In this document: one piece after another, positions 23,387-38,113 of the stretch
How the letters are laid out: every line of letters starts with the position of its first letter
How positions within the stretch are numbered: position 1 is the stretch's first letter
DNA from: Candidatus Gugararchaeum adminiculabundum
GTDB taxonomy: Archaea > Micrarchaeota > Micrarchaeia > Burarchaeales > Gugararchaeaceae
Direction of reading: 5' to 3'
Assembly: GCA_902384795.1 (NCBI GenBank)
Contig: CABMDC010000020.1
Coordinates: 1 to 52,666, forward strand
Length of the DNA: 52,666 nt
Notes under the pieces: generated by a model
What the model was told of the DNA's origin: nothing
The model's input: the letters and a program-made list of their open reading frames with translations, nothing else
Databases searched by the model: none
Program-made: the position numbers and the translations under genes

Positions 23387-25102
23387 TTAGCGTTTAATTC
23401 TGCTATCCTTTACATCTATTCCAGTCTTCCCCCTAGGCTGGACCATTTTCACTCCTGCCACTTCCCCGGGCGGGACAAATTTAGCCTCATTTCGCGCACT
23501 TCTCAACACTCCCATTTTTCCATCATCAAGCAAGGGCAGCTCGTTTTCTTTTTTGCCCCACGTCTTCCCCCCATACCCCAATCCCTGCGCTTTCTCCTTA
23601 ACCCCGGGATTTTTCTCAAACATCTTTGCTATCCGGTTCCTCATGGTAAGCTCGGTCTGATCCGGCTGTCCAGTTAATTCTGCAAGTTTCCCAAGTGTTA
23701 CCCTTCCCTGCGTTTCCACATCCCATTTTTCCAGAATTTCCTCAACATGCTGCTTGAGCGTCTTTACTCCGCTTTTTTCCTTAAACAGTTTTTTTAGTTT
23801 ACTTCTATGCTCCAAGTTTTGCTTAATTATCTCCGCGCCCAGCCCTGTCGGTCCCTCCAGCGCTTCAGGAGTTGCCGGCCCCTGCGTTTCCACATCCCAC
23901 TTCCCCAGGGCTTTCGCAATCAGCTTTTCCTCAAATTTCGAATCCCCATACCCGAACTTTTCAGCTTTTTTCTTAAGTTGAGGTTTTTCCTCGAACAATT
24001 TGCGGACTGTCACATTGCTTCTGCCCGCTTTTTTAGCAAGCCTTCTCAGGGTAATCCTTCCCAGTTTCAAATCCCAGTTCTCTATTGCTTCCTTGACTGC
24101 CGAATAAGTGTTGCCCTTTAGTTTTTCCATTGGGGCGTATCCCTTCTCCTTAGCGAGTTTTTTCAGTTTTTTGTCCTTCTCGATTATCTTCAGAATTACC
24201 GTGCTGGACACGCCAATCTTTTCTGCCAGCCTTTTGATTTTCAGATCCCCCTGTTTCTCCCTGTCCCATTCTTCCAATGCTTTTGTGATTTTCCTCCTGT
24301 TCTTCCAGCTCTGAACCCCATACCCGCCATTTTCCTTGGCCAGTTTCCTCAGAGCTGGGTTTTCCCTGAATACATCCGCAATTGTGGAATTGCTCAGCCC
24401 TGTTTTTCTGATCAGCTTCTTCAGCGTCATCTGCCCCTGCTTCTCCACGTCCCACTCCTTTACTATTTTTGCGAGCTTTTCCCTCTTTTTCCATGCAGGT
24501 TTTCCGTATCCCTTCTTATCCGCCAGTTTTTTCAGCCCTGGATTTTTCTTGAATATTCTGCACATTGCCGAAGAGTTTAACCCTGTTTTCCGCCTAAGCT
24601 TTCTCGGCGACATCCGCCCCTGCTTCTCCACATCCCACTCCGTTACATGTTTTTCAAGTCTTTTCCTGCTTTTCCACCCTCTATCCCCGTACCCTTTCTT
24701 TTTTGCCATGCGCATGATTCCCGGTCTTTCGCTAAGCCTTTTCTTGATCAAGCCAGGGTATGCCTTGGTTTTCCCAATCAGCTTATTCAGCGTAATCTGC
24801 CCCTGCTTCTCCACATCCCATTCCCTTACTATTTTTCCAAGCTTTTTCGCCCTGCCCCTGCGCAGATTTCCATAGCCCTTATTCTCGGCTTTTCTCCTCA
24901 GCCCCGGTTTTTCCTTGAATTTCTTTTTGATTGTCGACGGGCTCATATTTGCCTTTTTTGCCAATTTTTTCAGCGTTATTAATCCCTGCCCCTTCACCTT
25001 CCATTCGTCTATAGTCTCCCTAAGCCGACGCTCCGCTGCTTCCCTCTTTCTCATAGTTGCCCAAGAAGTTCTCTTTTTTCTCCTCACTGGTTCATTCGTC
25101 AC
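23387..25102 (-). CDS. Tandem helix-turn-helix-repeat (HTH-array) protein
   Basis: A 571-residue, strongly basic protein with eight ~55-residue repeats at about residues 23-78, 85-139, 146-200, 207-262, 269-322, 333-386, 392-445 and 451-511. Each repeat opens with a helix and W-D-V-E-x-Q-G; the Trp positions are 34, 95, 156, 217, 279, 343, 402 and 460. Next comes a TLxKL...TGLSxSTI segment that reads as a helix-turn-helix, then NPxLxKLAxxKGYG. Such repeats suggest multivalent DNA binding; I know of no family with this arrangement. The ~60-residue C-terminal tail is non-repetitive. The start is GTG 25102, with GGTGGGGGAG upstream. The promoter box at 25129-25160 is shared with the GAF gene at 32024. 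Confidence 0.8.
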   Translation of the reverse strand: MTNEPVRRKKRTSWATMRKREAAERRLRETIDEWKVKGQGLITLKKLAKKANMSPSTIKKKFKEKPGLRRKAENKGYGNLRRGRAKKLGKIVREWDVEKQGQITLNKLIGKTKAYPGLIKKRLSERPGIMRMAKKKGYGDRGWKSRKRLEKHVTEWDVEKQGRMSPRKLRRKTGLNSSAMCRIFKKNPGLKKLADKKGYGKPAWKKREKLAKIVKEWDVEKQGQMTLKKLIRKTGLSNSTIADVFRENPALRKLAKENGGYGVQSWKNRRKITKALEEWDREKQGDLKIKRLAEKIGVSSTVILKIIEKDKKLKKLAKEKGYAPMEKLKGNTYSAVKEAIENWDLKLGRITLRRLAKKAGRSNVTVRKLFEEKPQLKKKAEKFGYGDSKFEEKLIAKALGKWDVETQGPATPEALEGPTGLGAEIIKQNLEHRSKLKKLFKEKSGVKTLKQHVEEILEKWDVETQGRVTLGKLAELTGQPDQTELTMRNRIAKMFEKNPGVKEKAQGLGYGGKTWGKKENELPLLDDGKMGVLRSARNEAKFVPPGEVAGVKMVQPRGKTGIDVKDSRIKR

Positions 25103-25128: not shown

Positions 25129-25160
25129 CGTTATAGTTTATGTATATTAATGATTATAAA
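25129..25160 (-). promoter_or_regulatory. Promoter box shared with the GAF/kinase-like gene (copy 1)
   Basis: On the + strand this begins CGTTATAGTTTATGTA (25129-25144), has T at 25145, continues ATTAATG (25146-25152) and ends with TATAAA (25155-25160). Counting the three mismatches, 29 of 32 positions match the box at 32088-32119. On the minus strand the TTTATA end can act as TATA box, with transcription starting near the CATAAACTATAACG end about 27 nt before GTG 25102. Confidence 0.75.
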
Positions 25161-25191
25161 CCGTTCTTTCAGCCAAACTAAAGAAGAAGGA

Positions 25192-25208
25192 TGCTCCGTC
25201 CGCGGAGC
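25192..25208 (-). repeat. Copy of the tRNA-Glu 3' end in a small hairpin
   Basis: Eleven bases (25192-25202) repeat the 3' terminus of tRNA-Glu (25344-25354; CGGACGGAGCA on the minus strand). They are preceded on the minus strand by GCTCCG, the start of the same acceptor stem, so the 17 nt fold as a mini-helix. It may be a decayed tRNA fragment or an old recombination site. No integrase is nearby. Confidence 0.45.
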
Positions 25209-25263
25209 CAACTTGGTTTTCCAATCCAGGCCCCGAACCCCTCAAAACACAAAGAAGCACCAG

Positions 25264-25314
25264 TTAGCTGCGGATAACTGCTCCCGCGGCAAGCGCGCTC
25301 GCAGTTATCCTAAC
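25264..25314. other. Strong stem-loop downstream of tRNA-Glu
   Basis: GGATAACTGC (25272-25281) pairs perfectly with GCAGTTATCC (25301-25310) around a GC-rich 19-nt loop. GTTA (25263-25266) and TAAC (25311-25314) can extend the stem past a 5-nt bulge. It lies on the 3' side of the tRNA-Glu transcript and could be a processing or stability element, or a small RNA. No known RNA family was recognised. Confidence 0.5.
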
Positions 25315-25343
25315 CAATCTCCGAGATAATAAAAAAGAAATAG

Positions 25344-25458
25344 TGCTCCGTCCGGGATTTGAACCCGGGTCGCCGCCTATCACTGGACGGATCCGCTTTT
25401 TGTAAAGGGTCGCCGCCTTGAGAGGGCGATATCCTTGACCGAGCTAGACGAACGGAGC
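25344..25458 (-). tRNA. tRNA-Glu(CTC) with a 40-nt intron
   Basis: The acceptor stem pairs GCTCCGT with ACGGAGC, and an A lies at the discriminator position. The T arm is GGGTTCAAATCCC, and the anticodon loop CTCTCAA gives anticodon CTC. The mature tRNA is 75 nt. The gene has 40 extra nt, most simply an intron after position 37 (minus-strand bases 25418-25379). The intron begins with a copy of the exon sequence AGGCGGCGACCC, so the exact boundary is ambiguous from sequence. A relaxed bulge-helix-bulge can be drawn at the canonical site with 3 of 4 central pairs. The sequence ends without an encoded CCA. Confidence 0.9.
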
Positions 25459-25504
25459 GTTGTGTTTTTTCCGCCCTAATCGGGGCGGCAAAACCTTTCT
25501 TTTG

Positions 25505-25590
25505 GATTCGACCAGCCTTTTCTTTGGAAAGAAAAGGACCCGATTTTTGCCAAAGCAAAAATGGGCGCATTTGTGCCGCTGCACAAATCG
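25505..25590 (+). repeat. Triple-arm repeat element, divergent copy C (between tRNAs)
   Basis: CAGCC (25513-25517) leads into a perfect hairpin, CCTTTTCTTT (25516-25525) with AAAGAAAAGG (25528-25537). ACCCGA follows, then a second hairpin ATTTTTGC-CAAA-GCAAAAAT and TGGGC. A third hairpin follows at ~25569-25589 (ATTTGTGC with GCACAAAT). Compared with copies A and B, the order CAGCC, arm pair, ACCC(C)GA, ATGG is kept. A hairpin is inserted in the box and the third mirror arm is lost. It lies in the spacer between tRNA-Ala and tRNA-Glu. Confidence 0.55.
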
Positions 25591-25599
25591 CGTGGGCAA

Positions 25600-25671
25600 T
25601 GGACTCGGCGGGAATCGAACCCGCAGTCTCCTGCATGCCATGCAGGCGCGATACCGTTTCGCTACGAGCCC
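25600..25671 (-). tRNA. tRNA-Ala(GGC)
   Basis: A 72-nt intron-less tRNA. Acceptor stem GGGCTCG pairs with CGAGTCC and contains the G3:U70 pair that marks alanine tRNAs. The anticodon loop ATGGCAT, flanked by CCTGC/GCAGG, gives GGC. The T arm is GCGGGTTCGATTCCCGC. CCA is not encoded. A CCGCC-TTTTT-AGGCGG hairpin (25675-25690) lies just before its 5' end. It is upstream of tRNA-Glu on the same strand and probably co-transcribed with it. Confidence 0.95.
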
Positions 25672-25800
25672 CTCCGCCTTTTTAGGCGGAAGTGAGTCGT
25701 CCCTATCCCACCGGTTATTCACAAGGCAAGCGAGCAAACTTGTTTTGCGAGTCTTACCTTGCATAGGAATGCGTGTTTCAGTTTATATCCTGAAACTCAT
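25672..25800 (-). ncRNA. Candidate structured leader or small RNA ahead of tRNA-Ala
   Basis: No protein gene is visible here. On the minus strand a TATA-like GATATAAAC (about 25780-25790) sits in the loop of the palindrome GTTTCAG/CTGAAAC. About 25 nt downstream begins an imperfect 40-nt stem-loop (25721-25760; CAAGG with CCTTG outside, GCAAAC with GTTTTGC inside, a small internal loop between). A 6-bp hairpin next to the tRNA follows. The transcript would reach tRNA-Ala after ~85 nt. No C/D boxes and no clear ACA motif were found, so the class is unknown. Confidence 0.35.
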
Positions 25801-25830
25801 AAGAGCGACTCCGGAAACCATTGTACGCTC

Positions 25831-26058
25831 TTATTCGGAGGGCGAAATGAAAATTACGCTGTCTCCCCTGAGGAGCATGGTCCCGACTTTCCTCTTAACC
25901 TCGCCGTTCTCGAGAATCTCCGTGTTCTCAAGCACGATGTTCATGTGAACATCATAGCTGGTCATTTTTCCCCTAATCTCCCTGCCTCCTTTCATCCCGA
26001 TCAACACCATGTTGTCCAGGCTTCCATTTAGCACATCGAACGGTCTTTTCTCTGTCAA
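25831..26058 (-). CDS. Sm-like RNA-binding protein (LSm)
   Basis: A 75-residue archaeal LSm protein that forms rings binding U-rich RNA. The Sm1 motif RPFDVLNGSLDNMVLIGMKGGREIRGKMTSYDVHMNIVLENTEIL and the Sm2 motif GTMLLRGDSVIFI are complete. I chose the TTG start at 26058 because GGAGGGAGA precedes it by ~6 nt and the family starts with a short segment before RPFDVL; the upstream open frame would add eight unlikely residues. It is the last gene of the leftward TatD, NYN and LSm set. Confidence 0.93.
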   Translation of the reverse strand: MTEKRPFDVLNGSLDNMVLIGMKGGREIRGKMTSYDVHMNIVLENTEILENGEVKRKVGTMLLRGDSVIFISPSE

Positions 26059-26127
26059 AAAAATCTCCCTCCAAAAAATCAAAATCTTCCTTATATTTTT
26101 ACTCGCGTCCCCTTTTTAATGATATAC

Positions 26128-26610
26128 TCAGAGGTTGTCCGCCATAATTATGTGGTCAGCGGTATTCTTCAGGGCCACGGAAAAGCCCGGGTCAGCGCCT
26201 ATAACAATAGTCTCCTTCCCCAGCTCCTTTGCCTTGACCAGCACCGGCCTATAGTCGATATCCCGGGTCATGAGCGCAATCACATGGATGCTTGGGTTGT
26301 ACACCTGCTGCATGGCTTCCACAGCCATGGTCACATCCACATCTCCTGTTGTAATCACCGGCTCATACCCCTGATTTGTCATCGCCTCAATCAGCTTATC
26401 GCTCGCATACTGATCCAAATAGATTTTGCACACCTTGATTATGCCATACTGCTCCAGGCTCTTTTTCACGCGCGAAAGGTCAAGGTTCATCTCTTTCCTG
26501 ATGATGTTCGGCCCGTCCACTAGAAGCGCGATATTTTTCTCAGGTGTTTTCTTCTTTTTCACCATTCCGCTTAGTTTCTCAAACATTCCAATCCCTGTCT
26601 CGTTTTTCAT
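26128..26610 (-). CDS. NYN-domain (PIN-like) putative ribonuclease
   Basis: A 160-residue protein with a NYN domain, a PIN-like metal-dependent nuclease fold. The acidic residues are visible in ALLVDGPNII, in GDVDVTMAVEAMQQVY and in MTRDIDYRPVLVKAKELGKETIVIG. This matches a family widespread in archaea. The start is uncertain: ATG 26610 or ATG 26619, both just after the TatD stop at 26622. Its neighbours, LSm and a TatD-type nuclease, fit a role in RNA turnover. Confidence 0.85.
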   Translation of the reverse strand: MKNETGIGMFEKLSGMVKKKKTPEKNIALLVDGPNIIRKEMNLDLSRVKKSLEQYGIIKVCKIYLDQYASDKLIEAMTNQGYEPVITTGDVDVTMAVEAMQQVYNPSIHVIALMTRDIDYRPVLVKAKELGKETIVIGADPGFSVALKNTADHIIMADNL

Positions 26611-26621
26611 TATCCTCATCC

Positions 26622-27335
26622 CTATTCCATTGCAAAAAATCTTTTCGCATTCGCGCACGTTTCCCCAATCACTTCCTCCCTTGAAATTCCGAGCGCGCCC
26701 GCGATAATTTCAACCGAAGCCATGGTGTCCTGGGGCACCTTCCCTATCCCCGGAGCATCGCTTTCCACTACCAAATATTTTAGCCCGACCCTCTTAATTA
26801 CCTTTACTTTTTCCTTGCTCTTAAATGGTGAAATGGAAATCAAATATCCCAGGGAAACCGCTTTCGCGGCAGTCTCCTCGTCCCCAGTATAACAATGGAG
26901 CATCGCTTTTTTCACTCCAAATTTCTCCAGCGCTCTCACGCACTCTCCTTCATCATCTCTCCCATGGATAACAATTGGCAAATCAGATTTCAATGCCAGC
27001 TGAATCTGCTTCCCATAAATTTTCCTCTGGTTCTCCTGTTCCTCCGGCTTCCTCGCCCAGTGGTAATCCAGCCCGATTTCCCCAATTGCGTCAATTTTGC
27101 CCTTTTCGGCATTTTCACGCACAAATGCGATTTCCTTGGCGAATTCCCCGCCTTTCATCGCCTCCTGGGGCGCGATTCCAATGCACACCGCCACATTCGC
27201 TTTTCCCTCGGCAATCGCCACATTTTTCACATTGGCCGCGTGCGTGTGCCCGCTGGTGCAGTAGAGCATATCTTTGCTCACTATCCGCTCCGGATTCGCA
27301 AAACTTTCGAGATGGCAATGGGCGTCAAAAAGCAT
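26622..27335 (-). CDS. TatD-family metal-dependent hydrolase/DNase
   Basis: A 237-residue TIM-barrel metallohydrolase. Metal-binding motifs are in order: DAHCHLE (4-10), the Glu of IGEIGLDYHW, IVIHGRD, LHCYTG and VVESDAP. TatD enzymes have exonuclease or endonuclease activity in DNA repair and RNA quality control; the natural substrate here is not known. A TATA box (minus-strand TATTTAAATA near 27340-27350) lies very close to ATG 27335, suggesting a leaderless mRNA. It is the first gene of the leftward set and divergent from aIF5A. Confidence 0.9.
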   Translation of the reverse strand: MLFDAHCHLESFANPERIVSKDMLYCTSGHTHAANVKNVAIAEGKANVAVCIGIAPQEAMKGGEFAKEIAFVRENAEKGKIDAIGEIGLDYHWARKPEEQENQRKIYGKQIQLALKSDLPIVIHGRDDEGECVRALEKFGVKKAMLHCYTGDEETAAKAVSLGYLISISPFKSKEKVKVIKRVGLKYLVVESDAPGIGKVPQDTMASVEIIAGALGISREEVIGETCANAKRFFAME

Positions 27336-27404
27336 ACAAGCTATTTAAATATTTGGCTAATATAAAGATACCCTAATTTCAACTTCTATTTAGGTGATTT
27401 TGAC

Positions 27405-27815
27405 ATGAGCGAAGGGGAAAAAACATTTGCATCAGCCAAGGAGGCCAAGGTCGGGAAGTACATCCTGATAGAGGACATCCCCTGCCGCGTTGTGAACATT
27501 GAGTCCAGCGCGCCGGGAAAGCACGGGGCGGCGAAGATGAGGATCACGGGCATCGGCATCTTTGACGGCCAGAAGAAAATCCTGCTCAAGCCCAGCGATG
27601 GGGACATCGAGGTTCCGATGATCATCCGCAAGAACGCGCAGATCACTTCCATTTCCGGCAACTCGGTCCAGCTCATGGACGGAGAAACCTACGAGGTTTT
27701 CGAGCTCACGCTCCCGGAGGAATTCGCCGCAGACGCCGAGGTCGGCCGCGAAGTGGAAATCATCGAGGCCATGGGCAAGAAATCGATCCAGCGTGTGATC
27801 AAGTCTTCCGGCTAA
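27405..27815 (+). CDS. Translation factor aIF5A
   Basis: A 136-residue elongation/initiation factor 5A that helps ribosomes through difficult peptide bonds. The hypusination loop is visible in SSAPGKHGAAKMRI, with the modified Lys in PGKHG. The N-terminal SH3-like barrel and the C-terminal OB domain (EVPMIIRKNAQITSISGNSVQLMDGETYEVFELTLPEE) are both present. AGGTGATTTTGAC precedes ATG 27405, a strong archaeal ribosome binding site. S24e and S27ae genes follow, an information-processing cluster. Confidence 0.96.
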   Translation: MSEGEKTFASAKEAKVGKYILIEDIPCRVVNIESSAPGKHGAAKMRITGIGIFDGQKKILLKPSDGDIEVPMIIRKNAQITSISGNSVQLMDGETYEVFELTLPEEFAADAEVGREVEIIEAMGKKSIQRVIKSSG

Positions 27816-27863
27816 GCCGGGCGTGCATTTCGATTTTATGTGTGAAATTTTTTGGTGATGAAT

Positions 27864-28187
27864 ATGGATATTGAAATAAAGAACGAGAAAGAGAACAAGG
27901 CGCTTGAAAGAAAAGAGGTCACTTTTCTGGTGAAATACGACAAGGCGACCCCCTCGCGCGACGAGGTGCGGGCGGCCCTTGCCCCGAAAGTAAGGTCCAA
28001 GCAGGAACTCATAGTAATTGATTTCATGTACCCGAGCTATGGCACACGGAGCGCGAACGGAAGCGCCAAGGTATACGCCAACGAGGCCGCAATGAAAATC
28101 GAGCCGGCCTACAAGCACGCGCGCGGAAAGCCCAAGCCCAAGGAGGGAGAGGCGGCACCGGCGGCAAAGAAAAAAGAGAAAAAGTAA
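27864..28187 (+). CDS. Ribosomal protein S24e
   Basis: A 107-residue small-subunit protein. MDIEIKNEKENKALERKEVTFLV and the block TPSRDEVRAALAPKV match S24e, as do ELIVIDFMYPSYGTRSANGSAKVYANEAAM and the lysine-rich tail. I chose ATG 27864 because GGTGAT (27854-27859) lies upstream at a short spacing; ATG 27858 overlaps that site. A basic PKPKEGEAAPAAKKKEKK tail follows the folded domain. Confidence 0.94.
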   Translation: MDIEIKNEKENKALERKEVTFLVKYDKATPSRDEVRAALAPKVRSKQELIVIDFMYPSYGTRSANGSAKVYANEAAMKIEPAYKHARGKPKPKEGEAAPAAKKKEKK

Positions 28188-28264
28188 ATTAAAAAGGAAA
28201 AGAGGAGAAAAAGTAAAAAACAGCAAACGATGAAAACAAACAAAATTAACGATGTGTGATTTTT

Positions 28265-28429
28265 ATGGCAGATGAAAAAAAGGACAAAGCACCGGCAAAG
28301 AAAAAGAAAGCAATCAAGGCCTACAAGCCAGGCAAGCGCTCATGCCCCAAGTGCGGCACAGGAGTTTTCCTGGCTGAGCACGCTGACCGCCGCTCATGCG
28401 GAAAGTGTGGTTACTTTGAGAAAAAATAA
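28265..28429 (+). CDS. Ribosomal protein S27ae
   Basis: A 54-residue zinc-ribbon protein of the small subunit. The sequence begins [20 protein letters not shown] and the zinc ligands lie in CPKCG and CGKCG, 18 residues apart. The last residues are YFEKK. A GTGTGAT ribosome binding site precedes ATG 28265. In archaea S24e and S27ae are normally adjacent, as here. A frame-shifted open frame across this gene is not real; the downstream CPBP gene starts near its 3' end. Confidence 0.95.
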
Positions 28430-29099
28430 TCTCTCTTTTTTTATTGTTTCATTTCTGTTTTTTAGCGCGATTCTCCTAATTTTCTCAAGCATGCTTTTGC
28501 TCATGTTCAGGGTCCCCCTCAATCTCTACCTGCTTGCCCCGCTTCTAAACGGTTCGCTCTCATCCGCAATGGTCACATTCCCGCTTTACTATATAATGCG
28601 CGAAGACATTTCGGCAAAAGAGGCATTCTCCAGGCTCGGGCTTGAATACAGGGGCATCGGCCCGCTGGTAAAGGAAATAATCTACGGAGTTCTCCTGCTC
28701 TTCTGCATGTTCATCCTTCTCATGATAATCGGGGCATTGGCAATGAAATTCGGCTTCCTTGACCAGGACAAAGTCCAGGAAAAAGTTTCAGCGCTTCCGT
28801 TCTACATGGTCGTTTTTGCAATCATTGTCGCCCCGTTCACCGAGGAAGTCTTCTTCAGGGGTTTTCTTCTCAACCGCAAATTCCTTCCACCCATCGGCCT
28901 GCTGATTTTCTCCTCGGTCATCTTTGGCATCTCCCATCTCTCCTATGGCTCGGTTTACGAAATAGCCGCCGCCCTAACCATGGGGTTCGCCCTGGGAATT
29001 GCCGCCCTGTACCGGAAATCAATAATCCCCTCCATCACGGCCCATTTGATTTTCAACCTGATTTCCATGATAGCAATGCGTTCAGTCGGTGCCGGTTGA
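28416..29099 (+). CDS. CPBP-family intramembrane metalloprotease
   Basis: A membrane protein of the Rce1/CAAX-like (ABI) family with about six helices. The catalytic motif [14 protein letters not shown] carries the EE-x3-R pair, and the second motif [11 protein letters not shown] carries the metal-binding His. I chose TTG 28416 because it starts [20 protein letters not shown], a proper first membrane helix; it overlaps S27ae by 14 nt. ATG 28491 would remove that helix. The substrate is unknown. Kae1 follows 19 nt downstream. Confidence 0.82.
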
Positions 29100-29118
29100 A
29101 TTAGCACAAGTTGATTCT

Positions 29119-30093
29119 ATGATCTGTCTCGGAATTGAATCCACTGCTCACACGCTCGGAATCGGCATTTGCAAAAACGGCGAAATCCTCGCCAATGCGC
29201 GCTCCATGTACAAATCCGCCAAGCCCGGCGAAGGAATAATCCCAAGAAAAGCGGCAGAGCATCATTCTGAAATCTTTCCCACTCTTTACAAGCAGGCGCT
29301 AGCGCAGGCAAAGTTAACCCCTGACAAAATCGGCCTCTATGCTTTTTCCGAAGGCCCAGGCATCGGCGCCTGTTTGCGCACCGCCTGCGCAGCGGCAAAA
29401 TACCTTTCCGCAAAGCACAGGAAGCCAATCATCGGCGTAAACCACTGCCACTCTCACATTGAAATTGCAAAGAAATTCACAGGCTTCAAGGACCCGCTCA
29501 CTTTGTACGTAAGCGGAGGCAACACGCAGATTTTAGTTGAAGAGAAAAAATCCTTCCATGTTCTAGGTGAAACCTTGGACATCGGAGTCGGCAATCTGTT
29601 CGATTCATTTGCGCGTGAGCTGGGTCTGCAATTCGCCCACGGCTCTGCCATCGAGCAGCTCGCCCTCAAGGGAAAATACACCGAGCTTCCCTACACAGTA
29701 AAAGGAATGAATCTGGCATTCTCAGGTCTATTCACCGCAGTTTCCAAAAAAATTCCAAGCACTTCAAAAGAAGACCTCTGCTACTCGCTTCAAGAAACCG
29801 TTTACGCCATGCTCTGCGAAGCAAGCGAACGCGCCCTCACTCTCACTGGCAAGCGCGAAGTAATGGTTTGCGGAGGGGTCGCGCAGAACAAGCGGCTCCA
29901 GCAGATGATGGGTGAGATGGCAAAGGAGCACGGCGCAAAATTCGGGGTTGCGCCCAATGAGTTCAATGCGGACAACGGCGCAATGATCGCCTACACCGGT
30001 GAAATCCTATTTTCTCGCGGAATAAGAAGCAAACTAAAAGACTGCAGGCCAAGGCAGAAATACAGGAGCGACGAGGTTAGGCTGCGGCTTTAG
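29119..30093 (+). CDS. kae1: Kae1, tRNA N6-threonylcarbamoyladenosine synthase subunit
   Basis: The catalytic ASKHA-fold subunit of KEOPS, which adds threonylcarbamoyl to A37 of ANN-decoding tRNAs. Motifs present are MICLGIESTAHTLGIGI, the metal-binding VNHCHSHIEIA, LYVSGGNTQIL, GETLDIGVGNLFDSFAR, VCGGVAQNKRL and the final FNADNGAMIAYTG. I chose ATG 29119 because the protein starts with the fold; the open frame continues ten codons upstream without support. The 324-residue length means Bud32 is not fused, unlike in some archaea. Confidence 0.95.
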   Translation: MICLGIESTAHTLGIGICKNGEILANARSMYKSAKPGEGIIPRKAAEHHSEIFPTLYKQALAQAKLTPDKIGLYAFSEGPGIGACLRTACAAAKYLSAKHRKPIIGVNHCHSHIEIAKKFTGFKDPLTLYVSGGNTQILVEEKKSFHVLGETLDIGVGNLFDSFARELGLQFAHGSAIEQLALKGKYTELPYTVKGMNLAFSGLFTAVSKKIPSTSKEDLCYSLQETVYAMLCEASERALTLTGKREVMVCGGVAQNKRLQQMMGEMAKEHGAKFGVAPNEFNADNGAMIAYTGEILFSRGIRSKLKDCRPRQKYRSDEVRLRL

Positions 30094-32024
30094 GCCATTG
30101 CCGCGGCCGGCTTTTCAGTGTATGGCAGTTCTATCACTAACTTAAGGGTTCCGTTCTGGGAAAACTCATAGGCCATGCCGCCCATGCTATCCGCATACCT
30201 TTTCAACGCTGTCAATTCAAAAGTCGGGTAAATCTTTTCGTTCGGGTCTTTTTTCTCTGTGCTAAAGCATAGCTGGAACGATTCGCGCAAGTCCACGAAG
30301 CTCACTGTTATTGTTCTTAATTCTCTTTCCCGTTGTTCTTCCGGATTAAAGCTTAGGTCATTTAGCACAAGTGTTGCAATGGTTATGAGTCCCCGTATCT
30401 CTTCGGGGCCATAGTACTCATTGCCATTTCCTTCAATACGTATCTTGTCTTTCATCATCAAATACTCTGCCACCTTCTCAATCATCGCCGGGATTTCCTC
30501 TATTTTGGTAAATTTGGTCGTTTTATCGCTCACTGTCAAAGCGCTAGTCACATAGTCCATTGAACTTGTTGCCATCAAAACATCGCGCACCCTGCTGTCT
30601 ATCTCTCCCAGCAGGATTTCCCTGGCTCCCTGGTCATTCTCCTCCCTAAGCTTGCCAGTATTTCTCAATATTTTCATGGCCGCACCTTTGACTACCATGC
30701 TGAAATTGTTAATCATCTCATCCTGCACTCCACACCAAAGACTCTCATTTGTCTCTTTTTCCCAGTGATTTTCCATGCGGGAACCAAGATTAGTTGCAAT
30801 AATCTCCAGCGGCAGGGTATCCTCGTCTATGATATCCCTGGCGTCTGGGTAGTCAATGCTTGCGCTTATGACTCCGTATACTTTCCCACTTGGTCCAATG
30901 ATGGGTATTTCGGCAAGCTTGTAAACGCCGGCTTCTGCGATATCTTTTGGGAGATCTTCAATGCCATTGCGCGTGATTGTTTTCCCAGATTCAAGCGCCC
31001 TCCAGCTCGGCCTTTCCATGTTTTCTTCAGTAAACCGCAATTTTCTTCCAACCGGGAATGGGGCGTATCTTCCTGTGTTTGCTATAAGTTCCTGCACTGC
31101 CTCGCCTGTCTCCTCATCCGTAACGCGCAAGTGAACGCGCACGCTTGAAAATCTCGTGCATTCAAAAGCCCCTTTTGCGGCTTTTTCGCAGGCCCCTTTC
31201 TTATCCTGCGTTTGTGCAACTTCGCTTGAAACTTCCTGCGCCCTCATTAGCCTGTAGGTGGAAATGGCCCTGACAAGGTTTGCTGTTGCGGGAATCAATT
31301 GCTTGTGTATCTCATCTATTGTCACTTCCTTTTTGCTCGTGGGATTGTCAACCACCAGAAGGCCGATCACTTCGCCCTTTTCAATCAGTGCAACAATCGC
31401 TGCCCCTGGCTCTAGTTTCCCGTTATTTTCCAAGAATCCCCCTAGCTCAGGAATCCTATTTAGAAATTCGGCTTCAGTCTGGCCAAGTTGTTCGTAATGC
31501 TTTGTTTTGAAAATGCCTGACAGGATTATGGCTCCGGTTCTTTCGTCCGATTGATTGTTCGCCAATTTGTAGTCTTCAGGCATTTCTGTGAATATCGGTA
31601 TTGTTATCCTCCGGAATTCCGGCTCAATCAGACCGGCAAGATTTATGTTATAATCTCTCATCTCCCCCAGGCTGTCCTCCACACCTCGGATTTCTACCAT
31701 GTTCTTGGCCCTGAGATGGGGAGGAGTTGCAATGGCAAACGGGCACCTCAATTGCGATCCCCCTGTATCCGGATTTATCTCCTTAAGGAACACCAGCACC
31801 CTGTTCATCTCTCCGAATCCATTGGCAGTAATGCCCGTGAGAATTTCATAAGCAGTTTTCTTCAGGTTCATGGCCGCCGGCGTTTCCACGTCCATCTGGG
31901 CCGCAAGTCTGTTATAGAATGAAAGTGTTGTCCCGTTTATGGTCTCTTTAGATTTACGGCCTCGCCTAGCGGTTCTGGTAGGACATAGTTGTATCATCCG
32001 GCCGCCCGAATCCATTCGCATCAT
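30090..32024 (-). CDS. GAF-domain sensor with degenerate histidine-kinase-like C-terminus
   Basis: A 644-residue soluble protein. Two GAF-like regions lie at ~60-260 (GAAIVALIEKGEVIGLLVVDNPTSKK) and ~275-420 (LAEIPIIGPSGKVYGVISASID). A helical segment and a domain resembling a histidine-kinase ATPase follow: an N-box-like LVLNDLSFNPEEQ (~560) and a final ALKRYADSMGGMAYEFSQNG with LVIELPY. No clear phosphoacceptor His or glycine-rich G boxes are seen, so it may bind without phosphorylating. ATG 32024; the upstream region carries the same 32-nt box as the HTH-array gene. Its last 4 nt overlap the kae1 end tail to tail. Confidence 0.65.
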   Translation of the reverse strand: MMRMDSGGRMIQLCPTRTARRGRKSKETINGTTLSFYNRLAAQMDVETPAAMNLKKTAYEILTGITANGFGEMNRVLVFLKEINPDTGGSQLRCPFAIATPPHLRAKNMVEIRGVEDSLGEMRDYNINLAGLIEPEFRRITIPIFTEMPEDYKLANNQSDERTGAIILSGIFKTKHYEQLGQTEAEFLNRIPELGGFLENNGKLEPGAAIVALIEKGEVIGLLVVDNPTSKKEVTIDEIHKQLIPATANLVRAISTYRLMRAQEVSSEVAQTQDKKGACEKAAKGAFECTRFSSVRVHLRVTDEETGEAVQELIANTGRYAPFPVGRKLRFTEENMERPSWRALESGKTITRNGIEDLPKDIAEAGVYKLAEIPIIGPSGKVYGVISASIDYPDARDIIDEDTLPLEIIATNLGSRMENHWEKETNESLWCGVQDEMINNFSMVVKGAAMKILRNTGKLREENDQGAREILLGEIDSRVRDVLMATSSMDYVTSALTVSDKTTKFTKIEEIPAMIEKVAEYLMMKDKIRIEGNGNEYYGPEEIRGLITIATLVLNDLSFNPEEQRERELRTITVSFVDLRESFQLCFSTEKKDPNEKIYPTFELTALKRYADSMGGMAYEFSQNGTLKLVIELPYTEKPAAAMA

Positions 32025-32040
32025 TAATCACTGTCCCGAG

Positions 32041-32065
32041 TATATATAGTTTATGATTTGTTTCC
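32041..32065 (-). promoter_or_regulatory. Partial second copy of the shared promoter box
   Basis: TATATATAGTTTATGATTTG (32041-32060) repeats the TATAGTTTATG core of the box at 32088. It is only ~17 nt before ATG 32024. It may be a second operator half, or a TATA box for a leaderless transcript. Confidence 0.45.
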
Positions 32066-32087
32066 GTTTCTTTTCCGATTCCAAATA

Positions 32088-32119
32088 CGTTATAGTTTAT
32101 GTAAATTAATGCATATAAA
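32088..32119 (-). promoter_or_regulatory. Promoter box shared with the HTH-array gene (copy 2)
   Basis: On the + strand this begins CGTTATAGTTTATGTA, has A at 32104, continues ATTAATG and, after two differing bases, ends TATAAA. It matches 25129-25160 at 29 of 32 positions. On the minus strand it provides a TATA-like TTTATATG and would start transcription ~64 nt before ATG 32024. Its close match at two distant genes suggests a common regulator. Confidence 0.75.
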
Positions 32120-32236: not shown

Positions 32237-32977
32237 ACGAAGATTGGATTGATTGGAATCGGGGCAATAGGGTCATTCCTGGCCAAGAACCTGGGCAAGG
32301 AGCTAATCTGGATCTATGACGCTGACAAAAAGCACGCGCAGCAGAAGGTCAAGGAGCTGAAATTGAAGTGCGAAGTGGTCGACGAGCCGCGCACAGACGT
32401 AGATTTAGTGGTCGAGGCAGCTTCCCAGTCCGCGGTCCCCTCTCTGGTCAAAATCCTGGAAAAAACCAGCATTATGATTATGAGCGTGGGCGCGCTGGGC
32501 GACGATGCCCTGCTCGAGCGTCTCATGTCAACCGCGAAAAAGCACGGCACCAAAATCTACATACCCAGCGGCGCAATCGGCGGGCTTGACGCAATAAAAA
32601 GCGTGCGCGACCACCTGGATGACATAACTCTTGAGACAATCAAGAATCCGTCTTCGCTTGGAAGAACGGACACCAAGCGGACGATAATTTTCGAGGGAAG
32701 CGCGCGCAAGGCGGTGGAGGTATTCCCGCAGAATGTGAACGTGGCAATGACCCTTTCGCTCTGTGGATTAGGGCCTGACAAAACGCGCGTGGTAATAATC
32801 TCCGATCCCTCTGTCCACAGGAACAGGCACATCATCAAGGCGCGCGGGGACATGGGCGAATTCGAATTCACGGTTAAAAATGTCCCGAGCCCAGACAACC
32901 CTAAAACAAGCGCGCTCGCGGCTCTTTCCGCTTTGCGCGTGATAAAGGAAAGGGATGCGGTTTTGAGAATTGGCTAA
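32237..32977 (+). CDS. nadX: L-aspartate dehydrogenase
   Basis: Oxidises aspartate to iminoaspartate for NAD synthesis. The protein has the N-terminal Rossmann loop LIGIGAIGSFLAKNLG. Further family blocks are VDLVVEAASQSAVPSL, IMSVGALGD, YIPSGAIGGLDAIK, FPQNVNVAMTLSLCGLGPDKTRV and the His-containing DPSVHRNRHIIKARG. The first in-frame standard start (TTG 32249) would cut strand beta-1. The natural family start MKIGLIG corresponds to ACG 32237, a non-standard codon, preceded by GGGGGC. Stop codons block any start further upstream. Either ACG is used or ATG was miscalled. Confidence 0.9.
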   Translation, partial: TKIGLIGIGAIGSFLAKNLGKELIWIYDADKKHAQQKVKELKLKCEVVDEPRTDVDLVVEAASQSAVPSLVKILEKTSIMIMSVGALGDDALLERLMSTAKKHGTKIYIPSGAIGGLDAIKSVRDHLDDITLETIKNPSSLGRTDTKRTIIFEGSARKAVEVFPQNVNVAMTLSLCGLGPDKTRVVIISDPSVHRNRHIIKARGDMGEFEFTVKNVPSPDNPKTSALAALSALRVIKERDAVLRIG

Positions 32978-37484: not shown

Positions 37485-37546
37485 ATCGTTCTTTAAATCG
37501 AACGATAATTCTTTATATCGAACGATAGTTTTATATATCGAACGCT
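37485..37546 (+). promoter_or_regulatory. Three 20-bp operator repeats before the MNT-HEPN module
   Basis: TCGAACG recurs at exactly 20-bp spacing: GAACGAT at 37500 and 37520, and GAACGCT at 37540, each preceded by a TTTA(A/T)ATC-like segment. The first is also the right half of the palindrome ATCGTTC (37485-37491) / GAACGAT (37500-37506). The last repeat contains TTTATATATC, the likely TATA box, 13 nt before the ATG at 37559. The winged-helix domain of the downstream protein is the obvious candidate binder. Confidence 0.7.
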
Positions 37547-37558
37547 CCTAACACAATC

Positions 37559-38113
37559 ATGAACCTATTCTCCGAGACAATCCGGTGGAACCTGCTTTCC
37601 TTTCTTTTCAAAAAACCAGAAGCGGAGTTCTATGTCAACGAGCTGGCAAGAGCCATGAATGCAAGTGCAAGCTCTGTTTCCATAACCTGCAGAGAGCTGA
37701 GCGAGAATGGCATTCTCAATAAATCAAAGAAAGGAAATTCCTTATTTTACTCCCTAAACAATTCAAACCCCTTAACCAAACTGGAGAAATCCGCATGGTT
37801 TCTTGCCCAGTTGCTTCCTTTAAGCAAGGCATGGGAGAACGAGGAATTCCAGTCCGTAGCCCTTTATGGTTCCTATGCTTCAGGCGAATTCATCTCAAAA
37901 AGCGATATTGACTTCATAATAATCACAAATGTGCCGGATTCAAAAGTGAGTGAATCATTCAGGCTGTTGAAAAGCAAATTACGCGCTGAAGTCAACATTA
38001 CGGTATTTTCAGTTTCATCCTGGAGAAAAATGGCAAAGGAAGGGGACCGATTTTATATCGAAGTAATCTCCAATCATATACCCCTATATGGCAGTTCACT
38101 GGTGATAGGTTGA
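37559..38113 (+). CDS. HTH-nucleotidyltransferase (MNT) protein
   Basis: The protein has 184 residues: an N-terminal winged helix (FYVNELARAMNASASSVSITCRELSENGIL, ~25-54) and a MNT-type nucleotidyltransferase domain with GSYASGEFISKSDIDFIII (~104-122), containing the GS and D-x-D catalytic residues. In MNT-HEPN pairs the nucleotidyltransferase modifies and silences the HEPN toxin. The HTH fusion suggests autoregulation through the repeats just upstream. Its stop overlaps the HEPN start as TTGA. Confidence 0.85.
   Translation: MNLFSETIRWNLLSFLFKKPEAEFYVNELARAMNASASSVSITCRELSENGILNKSKKGNSLFYSLNNSNPLTKLEKSAWFLAQLLPLSKAWENEEFQSVALYGSYASGEFISKSDIDFIIITNVPDSKVSESFRLLKSKLRAEVNITVFSVSSWRKMAKEGDRFYIEVISNHIPLYGSSLVIG

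Follow-up and report, generated by a model that had tools for sequence, protein, structure and literature searches.

Two 32-nt stretches upstream of an HTH-array gene and a GAF-like gene in the window—the whole 52,666-nt stretch of DNA analyzed here—are best read as two core promoters assembled from the same modules of their genome, an interpretation that we consider probable. Their similarity is largely that of ordinary promoters and does not prove that they share a dedicated regulator. The case shows how far core-promoter modules of a general kind can mimic a regulatory box.

Direct comparison of the two stretches on the minus strand bore out the identity at 29/32 positions, CGTTATAGTTTATGTA included, and the equal gene orientation reported in an earlier note on this DNA. 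Both boxes lie on the same strand, 7 kb apart, and precede minus-strand ORFs whose starts fall 58 and 95 nt downstream of TTTATA, which occupies offsets 0–5 of each box (Table 1). When gaps are allowed, the match grows a little at either end (AAGAA upstream, ATTT downstream). The local alignment score of the pair was 31, against a maximum of 18 among 500 shuffles. For two draws from the genome's own promoter profile, the per-pair P for at least 23/26 non-TATA matches was 1.5e-10; a column-shuffled promoter null reached at most 20/26 and mostly 16–17, compared with 23/26 for the actual pair. Chance does not account for the identity, even under the promoter-composition null.

The full box is confined to these two genes. 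A 32-mer search of the source genome (a 1.47-Mb assembly, 93% complete) with three variable positions and at most three mismatches returned two copies only (control, 0). The earlier note had named such a genome-wide search as a check; both copies stand at promoters, not as a random intergenic repeat. The 24-nt core at up to three mismatches was found in 0 of 300 other genomes of the class, none from the same family, and no exact match to this core turned up in GTDB contigs. A 15-mer from the box had 31 viral matches; for an exact match this short, some are expected in so large a collection.

A mobile or repeat element with no relation to genes might also leave two direct copies 7 kb apart. Here, however, both copies sit in promoter register without any further repeat body, and searches of viral, plasmid, and phage sets with the proteins gave no matches. 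The genes between and around the boxes are ordinary chromosomal, housekeeping ones—SfsA, TatD, NYN, Rce1-like, TsaD, aspartate dehydrogenase, and H+-pyrophosphatase—and the closest relatives of TsaD are in Candidatus Micrarchaeota (60% identity). Given only two copies and such neighbors, we rejected this explanation as extremely improbable. Duplication of a promoter, with a segment of ~45 bp copied between the loci and flanks that later drifted, would account for the shared strand and orientation at this distance and for the slight gapped similarity past the box on either side. It is nonetheless improbable: no similarity extends beyond the AAGAA and ATTT edges, and the limits fall near TATA and the start site, as constraint would give.

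The anatomy of the boxes is that of archaeal core promoters, whose standard parts are TATA, an A/T-rich −10 element, and an initiator (PMC5316973, PMC6640164, PMC8553660). The start site in P. furiosus is 23 bp downstream of the last A of TATA, and DNA melts from −11 to −2 (PMC6640164). We aligned 121 gene-upstream TATA boxes from a 477-kb sample of the source genome (about a third of it, taken as stretches, with the remainder searched by pattern). Counted from the first T of TATA, the start codons of leaderless genes peak at 28–30 nt, which places the transcription start near offset 28. Together with this ATG peak, the P. furiosus TATA-to-start rule (PMC6640164) predicts starts at A 25132 and A 32091, both preceded by T, and each box would therefore comprise one whole core promoter, opening with TATA and closing just beyond the start. 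The earlier note's view that conservation extends past TATA into the start area agrees with this assignment. TATA is sense-oriented upstream of the gene in both cases, CATAAACTATA occupies −10 to +1 of the predicted start as the A/T-rich element (PPE/initially melted region), and GAAAGAACGG and GGCAAGAAGC, just upstream of TATA where a BRE (RRAAA-like) would lie, are A/G-rich. The boxes resemble known archaeal promoters in the predicted TATA-to-start distance (~23–30 bp), in an A/T-rich melted region at about −11 to −2, in a Y/R start (T-A, offsets 27–28), and in the A/G-rich upstream stretch. They depart from them in that the −10 element, relative to predicted starts, is a defined CATAA locked at TATA+18, whereas the papers describe an A/T-rich element only.

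Table 1. Positions of the boxes, predicted promoter elements, and associated genes (window coordinates unless a contig is given)
Feature	Position	Strand	Details
Box 1	25129-25160		+ strand letters CGTTATAGTTTATGTATATTAATGATTATAAA; gene-sense TTTATAATCATTAATATACATAAACTATAACG
Box 2	32088-32119		+ strand letters CGTTATAGTTTATGTAAATTAATGCATATAAA; gene-sense TTTATATGCATTAATTTACATAAACTATAACG
HTH-array gene core promoter	25129..25160	(-)	TATA 25160-25155; spacer CATTAATATA 25152-25143; CATAA 25142-25138
HTH-array gene predicted start	A 25132	(-)	leader ~30 nt to GTG at 25102
HTH-array protein	23387..25102	(-)	571 aa; ~8 repeats of ~60 aa (W-D-x-E-x-Q-G ... GYG)
GAF-like gene core promoter	32088..32119	(-)	TATA 32119-32114; spacer CATTAATTTA 32111-32102; CATAA 32101-32097
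GAF-like gene predicted start	A 32091	(-)	leader ~67 nt to ATG at 32024
GAF-like protein	30090..32024	(-)	644 aa; two GAF-like regions below Pfam cut-off
Exact 11-mer CATAAACTATA	32055-32045	(-)	overlaps TATATATAC at 32049-32041
HTH-repeat family locus L053 (contig 22)	7511-14772		
HTH-repeat family locus L112 (contig 2)	1-1600		

CATAA at TATA+18 is a general promoter element of this genome. Within the 477-kb sample it occurs at exactly this offset (−10) in 10 cases, whereas other offsets average 0.52 (P ~2e-10), and it is both the top 5-mer/offset combination and the most position-specific 5-mer. No sharp peak of CATAA at TATA+18 appeared in 225 kb of other genomes, mostly Micrarchaeota. This position-locked, genome-specific element is the only mildly new point of the analysis; if confirmed, an archaeal −10 element with a specific sequence would be moderately interesting. 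A promoter survey lists DPANN data as unavailable (PMC8553660), and our literature search turned up no studies of Micrarchaeota start sites. The arrangement TTTATA, 12 nt, CATAA at −10, and start at TATA+28 offers a concrete consensus for the promoters of an uncultured DPANN archaeon. One could go further and suppose that CATAA at TATA+18, extended as CATAAAYTATAAC, defines a promoter class in this Micrarchaeota lineage, perhaps one recognized by a particular TFB/TFE or by a factor specific to the lineage, within which the HTH-array and GAF-like genes form a private co-regulated pair; we think this quite unlikely.

The other modules of the box recur elsewhere in the genome as well. Of the four genomic copies of CATAAACTATA, three lie at the HTH-array and GAF-like genes, and the fourth precedes an RNase R-like gene. 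Its degenerate form, YATAAAYTATA, occurs at nine sites, and 9/9 are sense-oriented just upstream of genes: the HTH-array gene, the GAF-like gene (twice), the RNase R-like gene, a wHTH gene, two membrane proteins, a 229-aa protein, and a multi-HTH gene on contig 22. The baseline for AT-rich 11-mers in such sense gene-upstream windows is only ~12%. The layout TTTATA-N2-CA-N2-AAT-N3-CATAA has nine matches at up to two mismatches (reversed control, 0). Four of these are perfect (both boxes, a wHTH/coiled-coil gene on contig 12, and an LspA-like gene on contig 21) and CATAAAYTATAAC lies upstream of five genes, with the box pair making up 2/4 and 2/5 of these module examples and the patterns derived partly from the box itself, after it was seen. 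The C21 promoter is 23/32 identical to the HTH box and likewise 23/32 to the GAF box. If TATA, CATAA, the spacer layout, and the CATAAAYTATAAC half are discounted, the pair has few positions of its own, and there may be a small real excess of similarity beyond the modules. Either a common regulator or duplication of the promoter would produce such an excess.

These recurrences outline how two core promoters could come to look alike. TBP and TFB would bind the TATA end of each box, and CATAA (−10) and CTATAAC would sit at the site of DNA melting and transcription start; the melting role and any promoter strength are our reading of a module register that is itself directly visible. Both promoters would combine module variants used elsewhere, namely the CA-N2-AAT spacer and the CATAAAYTATAAC melted region, and such a combination could yield 29/32 identity without a dedicated operator. 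Shared ancestry or weak co-regulation may contribute to the combination of both modules in exactly these two promoters. Two findings count against the module account: the pair identity exceeds the column-shuffled promoter null, so that module sharing is invoked after the fact, and neither gene occurs in any other genome of the class, the pattern expected of a private two-gene system.

The same two findings would fit a shared operator: a single regulator, either the HTH-array protein or a wHTH repressor, would bind between TATA and the start at both genes and control them jointly, probably as a repressor that blocks TBP/TFB or RNA polymerase. Also consistent with it are the restriction of the 32-mer to two copies, the additional 11-mer copy at the GAF-like gene, and the presence of TATAAATTATATATAC in the promoter of the contig 22 multi-HTH gene. 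In autoregulated archaeal regulators of the Lrp/MarR/MDR1 type, the operator overlaps TATA or the start site. The boxes are similar in their conserved TATA-to-start overlap and in that one of the genes encodes a probable DNA-binding protein, but differ in having no symmetrical operator beyond the core elements and in that half of the box stands at many unrelated promoters. That half, the −10/start segment YATAAAYTATA, mostly precedes unrelated genes and keeps core-promoter register there; the 11-mer family does not mark a coherent gene set, and the full 32-mer alone is confined to two genes. A palindromic operator was also rejected: the dyad (8–9/12 pairs) is composed of the TATA and CATAA elements, and several other promoters are equally symmetric. 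A search for its type, TTTAT-N4-ATTAAT-N4-ATAAA, gave nine sites (control, 1), several of them plain TATA...CATAA promoters. Moreover, the box is missing from a related HTH-array gene that runs across contigs 2/22. We therefore regard a shared operator as unlikely. The common specific regulator proposed in the earlier note is unsupported, and nothing found speaks positively for its suggestion that the HTH-array protein fills that role; the regulatory link it drew between the two genes is a possibility.

The HTH-array protein is plausibly DNA-binding. Its Pfam matches are HTH models, and the predicted structure of one repeat (pLDDT 88) is a helical HTH-like fold whose best structural matches are mostly HTH regulators, though nonsignificant. 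Searches with the repeat gave 15 matches in the source genome and 0 in the 300 other genomes of the class. They outline a gene family private to this genome, with members of 594 aa and 478 aa and a 1287-aa multi-HTH protein. The end of contig 22 and the beginning of contig 2 both lie inside near-identical repeats, so that the two HTH-repeat ends are probably one gene broken by assembly. The box is absent upstream of the HTH-array paralogues on contigs 22 and 2; the promoter of the contig 2 gene reads TTTTTAA...CATAAATT. Close to the HTH-array gene, inspection by eye suggests a tRNA-Glu (CTC) gene with an intron at 25345-25458 (-), which ARAGORN and Rfam did not report; the intron bears a second copy of GGCGGCGACCC.

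The GAF-like gene has further sequence of interest ~36 nt downstream of its box, where the earlier note had placed a partial third copy (32041-32060). An exact 11-mer is indeed present (32045-32055), but it lacks a TATA box at the matching distance, unlike most other copies, and overlaps a second TATA-like element (TATATATAC). Judged by spacing, positions 32041..32055 are possibly a second, proximal promoter that would give a leaderless mRNA from the ATG at 32024/32021. Of the description of this gene as sensor- or kinase-like, only two GAF matches below the Pfam cut-offs are left, and no kinase domain was detected. By eye, the C-terminal region resembles a degenerate histidine-kinase module. 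The protein had no match in NCBIfam or PDB and no detectable relatives in the class, and its single-sequence AlphaFold model (pLDDT 31) is unusable. With only subthreshold GAF matches and no relatives in the class, calling the protein a sensor is a guess.

Several observations concern neighboring or comparable loci. The aspartate dehydrogenase-like gene at 32237-32977 (+) has no ATG, GTG, or TTG between an in-frame TAG and the Rossmann motif. Shortly after AGGGGG, an ACG (ACGAAGATTGGATTG) stands at the expected start codon, either as a rare start codon or as a sequencing difference. On contig 1 (L093, ~52960), the promoter of an HTH regulator gene carries a perfect palindrome, TTAACTATAGTTAA, directly after CATAA, likely a candidate autoregulatory operator. 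Within the window, two tandem TATA-like promoter repeats (TTTAAATCGAACGATAATTC / TTTATATCGAACGATAGTTT) together with ATATATCGAAC occupy 37492-37540 (+), upstream of the gene at 37559.
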